Source: Hymenobacter sp. YIM 151500-1
GTDB taxonomy: Bacteria > Bacteroidota > Bacteroidia > Cytophagales > Hymenobacteraceae
Length of the DNA: 64,000 nt
NCBI RefSeq assembly: GCF_025979885.1
Contig: NZ_CP110139.1
Span: 496,001-560,000 of the forward strand
Direction: 5' to 3'
The position numbers and the translations under genes were made by a program. The notes below the pieces were generated by a model. The model did no database searches and was not told the DNA's origin. It saw nothing but the letters and a program-made list of their open reading frames with translations. Positions within the stretch are counted from its first letter, which is position 1. Every line of letters begins with the position of its first letter. Positions 47,239-53,122 of the stretch are shown here, one piece after another.

Positions 47239-47544
47239 AAGAGGAAGAACACGGAAAGGTAAATGTCGAGGTTAACTGCCGTTGCGCCAACACGTAGCCG
47301 CCGAAGACCTGGAAAAAATCGTTGACTTTGGGTAGCCGCTGCTCGAAGCGTAGCCAGTGACACCAGTTGTAGGCGCGGAGCCACGCACACTGGGCATTGA
47401 TCTGGCCAGGCGTTGCCGGTTACGTTGCTGATGCCAGCGTAGGAAGCGTAGGAAGCGGAAGCGTAGGAAGCAGTTTGAGGGGAGCAAGCATGGGCTGCCG
47501 CTCGTGGCTACCTTTGCGCGCGTTACTTGCTTGTTCCGCTACTC
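47239..47544. other. Intergenic region upstream of the nucleotidyltransferase gene
   Basis: It holds a short tandem repeat of GCGTAGGAA units (about 47437-47471), and TACCTTTG at 47509-47516, which fits a -7 box 29 bp before the ATG at 47545. No gene was seen. Confidence 0.5.
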
Positions 47545-48969
47545 ATGAAAGTGCCTCAACTGCCCGACTTGCCCTTATTCCACACCATTGCCGAAGCCGC
47601 TGGCGAGCTTGGCTACCCTGCCTACGTCATTGGGGGCTATGTGCGCGACCTGGCCCTGAACCGGCCCAGCAAGGACGTGGACGTAGTGTGCGTGGGCGAC
47701 GGTATCCGGTTGGCGCAGGAGGTGGGCCGCCGCCTGCCCGGCCGGCCCCGCGTCACGGTGTTCAAGAACTTCGGCACGGCCATGCTGCCCACGCCCGACA
47801 TCGAGCTGGAATTTGTGGGGGCGCGCAAGGAAAGCTACCGGGCCGAAAGCCGCAAGCCCGAGGTGGAAGCCGGCACCCTGGAAGAAGACCTGGCCCGTCG
47901 CGACTTTACCATTAACGCCCTGGGCCTGAGCCTGAACCCTGAGAACTTCGGCGCCCTGGTGGACCGCTACGACGGCCTGGGCGACTTGCAGCGCCGCACC
48001 ATCCGCACCCCGCTGGACCCCGACGTTACGTTTTCCGACGACCCGCTGCGCATGATGCGGGCTATCCGCTTTGCCGCCCAGCTAGACTTCGACATCGAGC
48101 CCGACACCTTCGACGCCATCGGCCGCAACAAGGAGCGGATCAAGATTGTGTCGCAGGAGCGGATTACCGTTGAGCTGAACAAGATTATTATGGCGCCCCA
48201 GCCCAGCTATGGATTCAAACTGCTGTTTCATAGCGGGCTGCTGCACCTCATCTTTCCCAAGATGGCCCAGCTGCAAGGCGTGGAAAAAGTGGGCCAGCAC
48301 GCGCACAAAGACAATTTCTACCACACCCTGCAAGTGCTCGACAACGTGGTGGCGGCCGGCGGCGACCTGTGGCTGCGCTGGGCCGCCATTCTGCACGACA
48401 TCGCCAAGCCCGCCACCAAGCGCTACGACAAGCGCGTGGGCTGGACCTTCCACGGCCACGAGGACAAGGGCGCGCGCTGGGTGCCGGGCATTTTTCAGGA
48501 GCTGAAGCTGCCGCTGGGCGAGGAAATGCGCCAAGTACAGAAGCTGGTGCGCCTGCACCTGCGACCCATTGCCCTGGTCAAGGAAATTGTAACCGACTCG
48601 GCCGTGCGGCGCCTGCTGTTCGAGGCCGGCGACGACATCGACCGGCTCATGCTGCTCTGCCGGGCCGACATCACCAGCAAGGACCACGACCGGAAAGCCC
48701 GCTACCTGCGCAACTTCGAGCGGGTAGAGGAGAAGCTGCGCGAAGTAGAAGAGAAAGACCACCTGCGCAACTTCAAGCCCGTCATCACCGGCGAGGTCAT
48801 CATGCAGACCTTCGGCCTGAAACCTTCGCGGGAAGTGGGCCAACTCAAAGACGCCGTGCTCGAAGCCATCCTCGACGGCAAGGTCCGCAACGAGTACGAA
48901 GACGCCTTCCCGCTGCTGCTGGAGCTAGGCAAGCAAAAAGGCCTGGCGCCGGTGGAAATGAGCGAGTGA
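47545..48969 (+). CDS. CCA-adding-type tRNA nucleotidyltransferase with HD domain
   Basis: 474 residues from ATG at 47545 (MKVPQLPDLPLFHTIAEAAG). A TTG 18 bases upstream is possible but less likely. The class II nucleotidyltransferase head has GGYVRDLALN, then SKDVDVV (Asp44 and Asp46, metal ligands), ARRDFTINALGLSLN, and SDDPLRMMRAIRFAAQLDF. The C-terminal part has an HD-type phosphohydrolase region (HKDNFYHTLQVLDNV; RWAAILHDIAKPATK). It should add or repair the 3'-CCA of tRNAs, and the HD domain may have phosphatase activity. The stop lies at the edge of a GAGTGA-rich repeat element. Confidence 0.9.
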   Translation: MKVPQLPDLPLFHTIAEAAGELGYPAYVIGGYVRDLALNRPSKDVDVVCVGDGIRLAQEVGRRLPGRPRVTVFKNFGTAMLPTPDIELEFVGARKESYRAESRKPEVEAGTLEEDLARRDFTINALGLSLNPENFGALVDRYDGLGDLQRRTIRTPLDPDVTFSDDPLRMMRAIRFAAQLDFDIEPDTFDAIGRNKERIKIVSQERITVELNKIIMAPQPSYGFKLLFHSGLLHLIFPKMAQLQGVEKVGQHAHKDNFYHTLQVLDNVVAAGGDLWLRWAAILHDIAKPATKRYDKRVGWTFHGHEDKGARWVPGIFQELKLPLGEEMRQVQKLVRLHLRPIALVKEIVTDSAVRRLLFEAGDDIDRLMLLCRADITSKDHDRKARYLRNFERVEEKLREVEEKDHLRNFKPVITGEVIMQTFGLKPSREVGQLKDAVLEAILDGKVRNEYEDAFPLLLELGKQKGLAPVEMSE

Positions 48970-49219
48970 GTGAATGAGTGAATGAGTAGATGCGTGAATG
49001 AGCAAGTGAGTAGATGAGTGAATGGGCAGCCCCAGCGGGGCGGCATATCGGTAGATATCAGCAGGTACTATATGGTCAAAGCCCCAGTGGGGCGACACCT
49101 GACGTCATCAGACGGTTGTGTCACCCCGCTGGGGCTTGCTTGTTCTCACTCGGCTTTACTACCAACATGCCGCCCCGCTGGGGTTGCCCATTCGCTCATC
49201 TACTCACTTGCTCATTCAC
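48970..49219. repeat. Nested inverted-repeat element with GAGTGA-type flanking tracts
   Basis: Outer arms 48994-49046 and 49167-49219 are 53 bp each with 2 mismatches. An inner pair (about 49079-49098 and 49118-49137; GCCCCAGTGGGGCGACAC and its near complement) forms a second stem. The outer arms carry GAGTGA/GAGTAGA heptad-like repeats and a GCCCCAGCGGGGCGGC core. A tandem GAGTGAATGAGTGAATGAG tract joins the upstream gene end to the element. The element is about 226 bp with no coding content. Confidence 0.85.
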
Positions 49220-49228
49220 TCATTCACA

Positions 49229-49289
49229 AAAAAAGAAGGAAGCTCCGGCCTTCCTGTTGCAGCAGGGGGGTAGGCCGGTAGCTTCCTTC
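49229..49289 (-). terminator. Terminator of the PspC/DUF2807 gene
   Basis: GAAGGAAGC plus CCGGCC (49236-49250) pairs with GGCCGG plus GCTTCCTTC (49273-49289), with a small bulge. Read on the minus strand it ends in seven T. It lies about 260 bp after the stop, so the message has a long 3' end. Confidence 0.7.
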
Positions 49290-49547
49290 GGGTCTCACCT
49301 TTTCACTCACTAGTTAGACCCATATTGGTATCAGGTGCCGAAGCCTCTGATGCGAAACAAGCAGTAAGGGTTGCCTGCTAACAGAACACTTGTCTATATA
49401 TTGCTTTGTGCATGCTAAAAACCCAGGCCAACTCAAATGGTTGCAGCTGAACGGTAGAGGGGCCGGAGCACAACCGGGTTGTCGCACAGCAATCAGCGTA
49501 CCACTATGCTGCTATGTTGCCATAAGTTGGTAGCAGCGCCGTGGCGG
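49290..49547. other. Gene-free 3' region of the PspC/DUF2807 gene
   Basis: These 258 bases lie between the gene stop and its likely terminator. Nothing recognisable was seen. Confidence 0.5.
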
Positions 49548-52166
49548 CTACTCAACGGATCGGACGGCAGCAGCTCCCACGGCCTCGCGGCGGACGGTAC
49601 GGGGGCGGCCACTGTACTCCACCACGCTTGCGCCTACGGCATCAGCTTCCAGCTCCTCGGTCACGTGCACGCGCACTTTGCTGGCTCCCACCACGTCCAC
49701 GTCGGCGCGGCGGGCGGTGAAGTCGGCACCGGCAACGGCGCAGCCCCCGGCACCCTCGATGCGCAGGTTGTCGGCGCGGCCTTGCAGGGCGGCCCGGCAG
49801 CCCCCGGCCAGCTCCAGGCGCAACTCACTCAGCTCGCCCTGAAGCCGAAGCTGGCTGCCGCCGGCCTGTTGAACGCGCAGGTCGCCGGAGTTGAAGCCGC
49901 TCACCTGGGCGCGGGACCCGCCAATCAGCTCCAGGTCGTTGAGCTCGGGTGTTTCGATGGTGACGAGCACTGGCTCATCGGAGTCCCGCCGCGAATCGAA
50001 CAGGTCCCGGTTGCGGGGCCGGATGGTCAGCTCCCGGCCGTCGCGCTCTACCCGAAGGTCGCGCAGGGCCCGGCCGCGGCCGGCGGCCTTCACGCTGTAG
50101 CTGCTGCCTTGGCGCACCACCACCCGGTACGGACCCACGACGCTAACCTGGTCGAAATCCGTCTCGTCGAAGCGCTGGCGCTCGGAGCCGTAGGTGCTTT
50201 CGTCGGTGCTGAAGGACTCCATGTCGCCGAAGTTCAGGCTAACGTCTGAGTCAGCGCGCCCCTCGTCGTAGTCGTCACGGTCCTCGTTGCTTGCATCATC
50301 AGGGCCGCCGCGCAGGTCGGCTTCGGTGCAGTTTACGCATTCTACCTTGTTGCCCTTCATCCGGAACAGTTGGTTTTCGGGGTGGTAGGGGCCCCGACCG
50401 TTCACGTAGTCTTCGCCGTTGAGCCAATCGGCAAACTGTTCGGTCATGCGGAAGGTCCGGTCGCGGGGCATGAGCAGGCGCAGCTGCATTTCCTGGTCGC
50501 GGAACCGGGCGCTGGGCTGGTAAGTAAAGTGGTCGTCCACGCTCAGGGTAGAGTCGTTGAGCACGCGCAGCGTGTGCAGGGTAGAAGTAGCGGCCGTGCG
50601 CCGGGCCAGCGAATCGGTAGAGCCTTTGGCCGAGATGGTGCGCTCCAGCCGCGGCGCCTGGGCACTGTCAATGCCCACAATGTCCAGGTCAACCCACCTG
50701 TCATTATCGAGCTGGCGGCGTTCCAGAATAAGCGTGGGCCGGGTGAGGCCACCGAGGGTAGTGGTTTGGGTTACTTCGGCCTCGCGCTGAAACTCGCGAC
50801 CAATGCGGGTGCCCGCCACCGAGGAACCTACTACACCCAGCAGCCAGAGGCCCAGCAGCGTCAGCGAGGCCGTCCGGTTCAGAATGGTGCGGCGCAGTAG
50901 CAGCCCCAGGCCAGAGAGCAACAGGGCCAGGGCCGGAATGGCCGTGAGCAAATAAAAGCTCAGCACTGCCCAGGGCGAAATGTCATTGAAGAGAATAAAG
51001 GGTTGCAGCGGACCAAAGTCGAGGTTATCGGAGGCGGAAATCATGCCCACGCCCACGCCCAGCATAATGGTAATGGCTAGCAGCAGCGAAAAACCCGTTA
51101 GCACCAGCACGCCCCCGGCTACGACCCGGATGGCCGAGCCCAGAAAGTTGATAAGCGGCCGGATGTTGGTGAAGAAATTCTCCAGAAACGTGCCCACGGG
51201 CCGGTTGTTCACCGCCCCATCCTCGGGGCCGCCAGCACTGTTGCGCAGGTTGGAGTCCAGGGCCGACAGCGTAACGGCGTCGCCGCGCATGCGGAGCCGG
51301 TCGGAGGCCGTTTTGGCCTCCGGCACCACTATCCACAGCAAGATGTAGAGCAGAAACGCGAAGCCGCCCACAAACAGACCCACCACAAACAGAATCCGGA
51401 TGAGCACCACGTCCACGTTGAAGTAGGCCGCCAGCCCCGCCGATACCCCGCCCACCTTGCCGCTGTCGGTGTCGCGGTAGAGCTTTTTATAGGACGGGTC
51501 ATCGTCGGCCGGGGGCGTGTCATAGCGCTTGGGCAGGGCTATCCAGAGGATGATGTAGGTGAGTACGGCCAGGCCGCCCAGGTCTATCCCCTCAAACCGC
51601 ACCACGTTGTCGTCGAAGTCGATGATGCTGCGCACCAGGGGCTTGATGAACAGCAGCGCCAGAAACCCCAGCCGAATCCAGAGCGGATTGACGGCAAAGT
51701 AGCGGGCAATACCGGCAGCCACCCCGGCAATTTTGCGGTTGGTCATGTCGCGGAAGAGGCGCTTGGGCTCCTCGGCGGCACCCGTGGCCGTGGTGGTGGC
51801 GCTGGCGGCGAAGCCCGCGGCACCGGCCCCCGTGTAAGTGCCCTGGGCCGAGCCAGTGGCTACGGCGGCGGCCAGGGTTTCTTCGTCGTCCTCGGCTTCG
51901 TCGGCGGTCTGGAAGTCGCTCACGCGACCCATTTTGGCGGTCATAGCCTCCACGTCTTCCAGGGTAATCACCTGCTTGACGCTGGACAGGCGGGCGGCGA
52001 ACAGCTCGGCAATGCGGCTTTCGATGTCGGCCACAATTTCCTCGTGGCCGCGGTAGCCGCTGAAGTGGGCCTTTACTTCCGCCAGGTAGCGGCTGAGCAC
52101 GTCGTAGCCATCTTCCTCAATGTGAAAGATGATGCCCTGAAGGTTGATGCTGATGTTCTTTTTCAT
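49548..52166 (-). CDS. PspC-domain membrane protein with C-terminal DUF2807 (head GIN) domain
   Basis: 872 residues from ATG at 52166 (MKKNISINLQGIIFHIEEDG). An N-terminal cytoplasmic domain (about 1-95) precedes a linker and two PspC domains: KRLFRDMTNRKIAGVAAGIA (near 118) and KKLYRDTDSGKVGGVSAGLA (near 210), each with a following membrane segment. Further membrane segments cover about 325-450. The C-terminal 180 residues are DUF2807, a right-handed beta-solenoid seen in Bacteroidota (DQVSVVGPYRVVVRQGSSYS; ELNDLELIGGSRAQVSGFN; LRLQGELSELRLELAGGC). PspC is a membrane partner in envelope stress systems of proteobacteria; here the role is unknown. It is 48 bp after the PadR gene, probably one unit. 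Confidence 0.88.
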   Translation of the reverse strand: MKKNISINLQGIIFHIEEDGYDVLSRYLAEVKAHFSGYRGHEEIVADIESRIAELFAARLSSVKQVITLEDVEAMTAKMGRVSDFQTADEAEDDEETLAAAVATGSAQGTYTGAGAAGFAASATTTATGAAEEPKRLFRDMTNRKIAGVAAGIARYFAVNPLWIRLGFLALLFIKPLVRSIIDFDDNVVRFEGIDLGGLAVLTYIILWIALPKRYDTPPADDDPSYKKLYRDTDSGKVGGVSAGLAAYFNVDVVLIRILFVVGLFVGGFAFLLYILLWIVVPEAKTASDRLRMRGDAVTLSALDSNLRNSAGGPEDGAVNNRPVGTFLENFFTNIRPLINFLGSAIRVVAGGVLVLTGFSLLLAITIMLGVGVGMISASDNLDFGPLQPFILFNDISPWAVLSFYLLTAIPALALLLSGLGLLLRRTILNRTASLTLLGLWLLGVVGSSVAGTRIGREFQREAEVTQTTTLGGLTRPTLILERRQLDNDRWVDLDIVGIDSAQAPRLERTISAKGSTDSLARRTAATSTLHTLRVLNDSTLSVDDHFTYQPSARFRDQEMQLRLLMPRDRTFRMTEQFADWLNGEDYVNGRGPYHPENQLFRMKGNKVECVNCTEADLRGGPDDASNEDRDDYDEGRADSDVSLNFGDMESFSTDESTYGSERQRFDETDFDQVSVVGPYRVVVRQGSSYSVKAAGRGRALRDLRVERDGRELTIRPRNRDLFDSRRDSDEPVLVTIETPELNDLELIGGSRAQVSGFNSGDLRVQQAGGSQLRLQGELSELRLELAGGCRAALQGRADNLRIEGAGGCAVAGADFTARRADVDVVGASKVRVHVTEELEADAVGASVVEYSGRPRTVRREAVGAAAVRSVE

Positions 52167-52214
52167 CTCGGTGCTGCAACAATTCGGGAAAAACAAGAGG
52201 GAAGCGGCAGCAGG

Positions 52215-52859: not shown

Positions 52860-53099
52860 TGTCATGCTGAGCGCAGCGGAGCGGAGTCGAAGCATCTCTA
52901 CCGCTTCGTTGTAGTGGTCCTGTCATGCTGAGCGCAGCCGAAGCATCTCTCCCACTTCGTCGCAGATGATTGCTTCGTCCGCACGATTGGAGTTAGCCAG
53001 CGGTAGAGATGCTTCGACTTCGCCTCCGGCTCCGCTCAGCATGACGTTCCACTACATCCACTCATCCACCCATTCACTCATTCACTCATTCACTCATTT
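52860..53099. repeat. Direct and inverted TCATGCTGAGCGCAGC repeats with GAGTGA-type tract
   Basis: Direct copies start at 52861 and 52922 (GTCATGCTGAGCGCAGC...GAAGCATCTCT). An inverted copy lies at 53000-53045 (GGTAGAGATGCTTCG...GCTCAGCATGAC), so the first and third copies can pair over about 44 bases. The right edge is a tract of repeated CATTCACT units (53054-53099). There is no gene in 52581-53236 apart from this element and a promoter. Confidence 0.8.
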
Positions 53100-53122
53100 C
53101 CGCACGGCTCCGATAATGGTTG

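Follow-up and report, generated by a model that had tools for sequence, protein, structure and literature searches.

A composite REP-type palindrome family in Hymenobacter, probably spread by TnpA_Y1 subclass 1.2 transposases

The window (the whole 64,000-nt stretch of the Hymenobacter sp. YIM 151500-1 genome analysed here) contains a long composite palindrome at the end of a nucleotidyltransferase gene, presumably encoding a CCA-adding enzyme. Its parts and its neighbours are:

47527-48969, plus strand: upstream gene, the nucleotidyltransferase ORF, with its last codons and stop inside the octad run
48960-49028, plus strand: left tail, a copy-specific period-8 repeat of the GAGTGAAT type, mirrored in the right tail
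48990-49054, plus strand: left arm of the outer inverted repeat, comprising tail and outer repeat; its 65 nt are 92% complementary to 49159-49223
49029-49054, plus strand: left outer repeat, consisting of the hairpin GCCCCAGCGGGGC, 9 nt, and GTAG
49055-49078, strand not given: left internal spacer, without complementarity to the right spacer in this copy
49079-49137, strand not given: inner palindrome, formed by a facing pair of inner repeats
49138-49158, strand not given: right internal spacer
49159-49184, minus strand: right outer repeat; the plus strand reads CTAC, 9 nt, hairpin
49159-49223, plus strand: right arm of the outer inverted repeat
49185-49227, minus strand: right tail, mirroring the left tail
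49548-52196, minus strand: downstream convergent gene, from the ORF list

Read inwards, the order is octad tail, outer repeat, spacer, inner palindrome, spacer, mirrored outer repeat, and mirrored tail. An exhaustive scan for 53-nt arms recovers exactly the nested inverted repeat described in an earlier sequence-only reading: the two arms, 48994-49046 and 49167-49219, have 2 mismatches and a total span of 226 nt; without gaps the arm reaches the 65 nt listed above. The inner stem described in the same reading lies within these arms, at 49079-49098 and 49118-49137, and the nucleotidyltransferase gene is indeed adjacent. The GAGTGA “heptads” it reported are spaced 8 nt apart, not 7. Folded as single-stranded DNA, positions 48960-49230 give −101.5 kcal/mol for the plus strand and −98.9 for the minus strand (z-scores about −17.5 and −17.9; 0 of 200 shuffles equally low). 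No known RNA family reaches its Rfam gathering score within the window, and two miRNA matches beside the element, far below their cut-offs, were taken as chance. A further octad run lies on the minus strand at 53058-53103, upstream of an ORF at 53120.

The sequence past the element, at approximately 49231-49380, is a conserved segment containing a hairpin with an invariant GTTGCAGC, followed by an invariant TTCACTCAC. A motif search located it in 19 of 30 sequences of the locus, with double changes in five of eight predicted pairs; judged by eye, nine of the 19 overlap the upstream gene's 3′ end, and the others lie past its stop. No Rfam family matches it at gathering score in the window or in four relatives, and it is a candidate for a new RNA.

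The palindrome is one of a family, here called REP-A. The exact core GCCCCAGYGGGGC occurs 99 times in the window's genome, G000 (48 forward and 51 reverse; 0 for a reversed-pattern control), and a search with the whole element gives 86 matches, many places matching on both strands. Among 51 places fetched, 46 carry outer repeats on both sides, and 40 of these span at least 140 bp; the structure is therefore not the single-copy, purely local one that had been left open as an alternative. The other five, which lack one or both outer repeats, were dropped: by eye, one (L066) is a half element, and the rest (L079, L091, L105, L114) resemble chance matches inside genes. The unit common to the copies is about 158 bp, two outer repeats around an inner palindrome, with the cores in the layout ++-- and like-oriented cores mostly 51-54 nt apart (with exceptions, e.g., 63 nt). 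A 17-nt REP-A pattern is patchily distributed, in 18 of the 59 genomes searched, all of one genus.

A short palindrome in many intergenic copies, with inverted units at regular spacing, is what defines REPs and BIMEs, as is an unpaired tetranucleotide tag, which REP-A also has: GTAG is found unpaired in 72 of 80 outer repeats. It stands 9 nt from the hairpin, on its 3′ side; the canonical 5′-GTAG directly at the hairpin foot is not found in REP-A. Canonical REPs are described, in the relevant part of Quentin et al. (2018; PMC6006769), as having GTAG at the foot or at most 2 nt away. Read on the opposite strand, the outer repeat becomes 5′-CTAC, 9 nt, hairpin.

None of the 46 two-sided elements lies inside a gene as predicted by our own gene caller. 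Twenty-two lie between convergent genes, 22 between tandem and two between divergent ones, compared with 7, 24, and 7 of the 38 neighbouring gene pairs in the window; this convergent excess (p = 0.006) and divergent deficit (p = 0.07), like the stop codon positions considered below, depend on that home-made gene caller. The median distance from the core is 56.5 nt to a gene 3′ end (66 flanks) and 108.5 nt to a 5′ end (26 flanks). Copy number, siting near gene 3′ ends, the GTAG tag, and a transposase gene flanked by the repeats in five relatives (see below) support the proposal of the sequence-only reading that the element is REP-type.

The 3′ part of the upstream gene is matched in 52 of the 59 genomes, its own included, and thus in 51 relatives. 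The loci of 29 of these were read, and none has REP-A there; the only core-like match (at most 1 mismatch) among them is one lone copy (L129, position 1332). By eye, the left octad tail is also absent at this locus from the relatives displayed, and several relatives hold other hairpins or terminator-like stems in its place. At another G000 element (L085), the palindromes likewise differ from relative to relative (by eye). In this genus, hairpins seem to come and go at the 3′ ends of genes, as if these were slots for them, which is consistent with a putative terminator or mRNA-end role. In the genome set, which comprises one genome per species, neither an insertion junction nor a duplicated target site was seen.

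The partner of REP-A is suggested by its position in other genomes. In five relatives (G031, G019, G025, G016, and G002), a Y1_Tnp gene has REP-A immediately to its left and right. The encoded proteins have DHLH or DHVH, YIERQQEHH or close variants of it, and also WQ; the G025 copy has DYVH, and its gene is broken by in-frame stops. The HuH and Y---Q--HH motifs, on which the assignment rests, are those described for TnpA_Y1 subclass 1.2, and four of the five form one clade (support 99/96) in a tree that omits G025. The G031 protein is an IS200/IS605 transposase by NCBIfam (68.8 bits, cut-off 55), scores 36.1 bits against REP_Tyr_transpos, below that model's cut-off of 80, and matches solved transposases weakly. 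The Y..NP signature of classical class 2 RAYTs is not present in it; its motif is Y---Q--HH. In the passages of Quentin et al. (2018; PMC6006769) that deal with it, subclass 1.2 is “generally without typical terminal IS200 secondary structure,” with “no” entered for associated structures in the table, and is absent from descriptions of earlier RAYT groups. These passages make no mention of a search for REPs around its genes.

The five gene-bearing genomes have 14, 86, 26, 8, and 66 matches to the 17-nt pattern. Among the other 32 genomes of the genus, the counts are 83 (G000 itself), 43, 13, and 8, with 0-3 in the rest and a median of 0 (p = 3e-4, uncorrected for relatedness). Y1 loci were read at one per genome plus eight regions, leaving out some hits in the genus (e.g., G012, 67 bits). 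The genome with 43 matches (G027) has one strong Y1 gene, of the other clade and with no REP-A beside it; the one with 13 (G011) has a weak Y1 hit only. The REP-associated transposase anticipated by the sequence-only reading is thus present beside REP-A in five relatives, while none of the subclass 1.2 type was found in G000 itself (best E 0.035), so that the copies there look orphaned. Three weak Y1_Tnp genes of G000 were rejected as partners: the surrounding 11-12 kb include just two lone one-mismatch cores (L115, L117).

The CTAC form may not be limited to REP-A. Thirteen gene loci of the transposase clade were scanned with six tags of our choosing, counting only tags that occurred at least twice. 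CTAC at 9 nt is the top tag at the five REP-A loci (L228, L230, L231, L237, L238) and at L225, and ties with 8 nt at L217, making it top or joint top at 7 of 13. Another locus (L214) has CTAC at 10 nt, L227 has another tag, and L215, L220, L222, and L224 gave nothing; L227 and L215 show a CTAC form by eye only. In the sister clade, CTAC at 9 nt is top at none of six loci. A single combined pattern for the sister families matches in 10 of 59 genomes, with 40 matches in G031 and 10 in G022 (reversed-pattern control: one match in all). In G001 and G009 it matches three and two times, all near the transposase gene itself, too few to show that those two families are multicopy. A second CTAC family, CTACAAACCTGTCGCCGC, occupies 40 places in G031, often as pairs about 118 nt apart, with one match in G000 and, in G031, no tie to a transposase gene. 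Two related Y1 transposases (L226 and L229, in G002 and G027) have a different flanking repeat, the hairpin CCCAGGGCTT(C/T)AGCCCTGGG, with CTAG or GTAG at its foot.

Beyond the outer repeats, the flanks differ from copy to copy, and left and right flanks are often complementary within one copy. Summed over the 46 elements, own-arm scores reach 1192.6, a total that none of 10,000 random re-pairings brings above 795.6. Arm scores of at least 20 are found in 26 elements, compared with 15% of cross pairs, and 20 elements score below 20. Because simple repeats cross-match, the own right arm is the best or joint best match for only 13 of 46 left arms; arms that are not simple repeats also exist (58 nt, perfect, at L085; 40 nt at L102). 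Elsewhere, arms scoring at least 20 surround REP-A in four of 21 copies read in G016 and one of 21 in G031 (sister species), from 20 regions (21 clusters) in each that are a subset of the copies, so that the core can evidently exist without arms.

Within one genome, some of the arm may nevertheless be part of the unit, as several copies have flank in common. Nine of 21 copies in G031 (L172, L174, L175, L177, L181, and others) have a segment like CGCAACTTGGGTT beyond the core, four of them on both sides and the rest on one; in G000, GCCGTTC flanks the core at a distance of at most 14 nt on both sides in nine of 46 elements (13 left, 13 right). Apart from these near-core segments, the data mostly speak against GAGTGA tails being a constant component of the element. 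Contrary to the sequence-only reading, the GAGTGA repeat is mostly copy-specific flank, rare around the core in G016 and G031, and octad and heptad tails in G000 also enclose other hairpin cores, or no core (by eye).

Several such structures were seen in G000. One other hairpin family, GTCATGCTGAGCGCAGCCGAAGCATCTC and variants, has octad tails on both sides (L190-L193, L202); another group of small hairpins has apparently intrinsic 7-mer arms, GTGAGAGGTGAGAAGTGAGAC (L195-L199); and a long GTGAGAG 7-mer array (L201, C1:2712119-2712270) is without a mirrored partner in the stretch displayed.

As placed by our own gene caller, 17 of 26 scored mirrored arms extend to a neighbour's stop codon. At L085, one side of the perfect 58-nt arm takes in the left gene's final codon and its stop, and the other side takes in the final eight codons of the right gene together with their stop; the right-gene proteins of relatives have other C-termini there (23 compared, some poorly aligned). 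Since arms cross stop codons, REP-A insertion could have a part in altering protein C-termini. In another relative (G026), the window's locus holds a different hairpin, whose right flank repeats the final codons of the upstream gene in inverted form (by eye).

Mirroring is also found inside the element. Left and right internal spacers are normally unrelated; among 73 parsed copies of 87, two, both in G016, have perfect mirrors (24 of 24 bases), and the next best score is 9. A third case (L109, in G000), one of the 14 unparsed copies, was recognized by eye. Resemblance between the spacers of different copies is also seen (scores of 14-22 in 19 of 5256 cross pairs), suggesting that copying between elements also occurs. 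Polymerase template switching produces mirrored tracts, according to the section of PMC8794818 that treats it, and all-or-none mirroring of private sequence would fit such a process. Arm copying is something we infer from sequence, and copy direction is proved at no locus: ortholog alignments between G016 and G000 leave it undecided, and the site of one G000 element (L068) holds a different palindrome in G016 (L160).

Taken together, these observations suggest, with a probability of roughly 0.6, that the window element is one REP/BIME-type composite palindrome, spread by a TnpA_Y1 of subclass 1.2, whose arms were later template-switched. REP-A would have been moved by the transposase in single-stranded form. 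Where it inserted between gene 3′ ends, the result would have been a strong hairpin, probably acting as a two-way terminator or as a shield for mRNA 3′ ends. Polymerase template switching at the hairpin may have copied flank across, lengthening or perfecting the palindrome, and the copied flank would have extended as far as the stop codons of neighbouring genes and in some cases beyond them.

For the tails there is a serious rival, though on balance we consider it unlikely: the tail palindromes could have come first, at gene ends, with REP-A, like other mobile hairpins, entering their loops. The mirrored tails around other cores, sometimes around none (L189-L199 and L202, by eye), would follow naturally, as would the 7-mer arms that hairpins of one family (family D, L195-L199) carry as if intrinsic, and insertion sequences that target REPs are known, at least from the part of PMC1525189 concerned with them. 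Such nesting nevertheless leaves the perfect mirrored spacers inside the element unexplained, is at odds with the lack of a flanking arm scoring at least 20 in 17 of 21 G016 and 20 of 21 G031 copies read, and still requires a process that makes host-specific palindromes of 40-60 nt.

If the element were instead a local, non-mobile bidirectional terminator under selection, its repeats spread by gene conversion, the siting at 3′ ends, the excess of convergent positions over those of the window's gene pairs, and the unrelated hairpins seen by eye in the same slot in relatives would all be expected, but not repeats flanking a transposase gene in five genomes, nor a pattern so patchy within a single genus; this seems improbable. 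Least probable of all is the MITE-like unit also mentioned in the sequence-only reading, a classical MITE with the GAGTGA arms as part of its terminal inverted repeats. Small size, a long inverted repeat, many copies, and some outer flank common to certain copies within a genome recall such elements. Yet most of the arm sequence is private to each copy and arms are rare around the core in G016 and G031: tails vary among copies, and what the copies have in common is the outer repeats and a short adjoining segment.

On the preferred reading, a REP/BIME-type palindrome with a subclass 1.2 partner, REP-A resembles several known systems without matching any. Like the REPs, BIMEs, and REPINs mobilised by RAYTs (TnpAREP) in Pseudomonas and E. 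coli, it is present as many intergenic palindromes, arranged in inverted pairs close to gene 3′ ends, with an unpaired tetranucleotide tag and a transposase gene flanked by the repeats; it differs in having GTAG on the opposite side of the hairpin at a distance of 9 nt, a transposase that is not of the Y..NP class 2, two nested pairs per unit, and arms that are largely host-specific. For REP dimers, complementary spacer ends have been noted before, with no mechanism given in the section concerned (PMC3733652); compared with that account, whole spacers and outer flanks are mirrored copy by copy in REP-A.

The transposases themselves share the DHLH/DHVH, WQ, and Y---Q--HH signature given for TnpA_Y1 subclass 1.2 in the corresponding part of PMC6006769, but flanking repeat families are seen in the present genomes, unlike in that description. 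With IS200/IS605 insertion sequences, the points in common are the name that NCBIfam gives the G031 protein and its weak match to solved transposases; in contrast to those elements, REP-A copies far outnumber the gene in gene-bearing genomes. As in template-switch or quasipalindrome mutation, to judge from portions of PMC8794818 and PMC7202029, reverse-complement stems appear to have been made or perfected in one event, but the REP-A tracts are about 20-60 nt, lie at mobile hairpins, reach stop codons, and are known here from sequence alone.

Searches of titles and the beginnings of abstracts, with subscription journals mostly outside their range, found no paper on REP elements of Hymenobacter. 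None was found on subclass 1.2 after 2018 in titles and abstract beginnings (the text seen of PMC10711439, from 2023, uses TnpAY1 once). Nor did any paper combining “repetitive extragenic palindromic” with “template switching” appear in a search that likewise left subscription journals mostly outside.

A broader proposal is more tentative, and we would put it somewhat below even odds: that subclass 1.2 enzymes mobilise an undescribed class of 5′-CTAC-9nt-hairpin REPs, comprising REP-A and other families, whose inserted hairpins capture host DNA, the end of the neighbouring gene being copied across in replication to give private, perfectly mirrored arms, with the stop and C-terminus of the facing gene open to rewriting. 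If true, this would supply a DNA partner for a transposase subclass described without one, and would bring an IS200-like enzyme, whose tag is arranged differently, into REP biology. It would also make available, as a natural collection, dozens of tracts whose long palindromes appear to be products of template switching.
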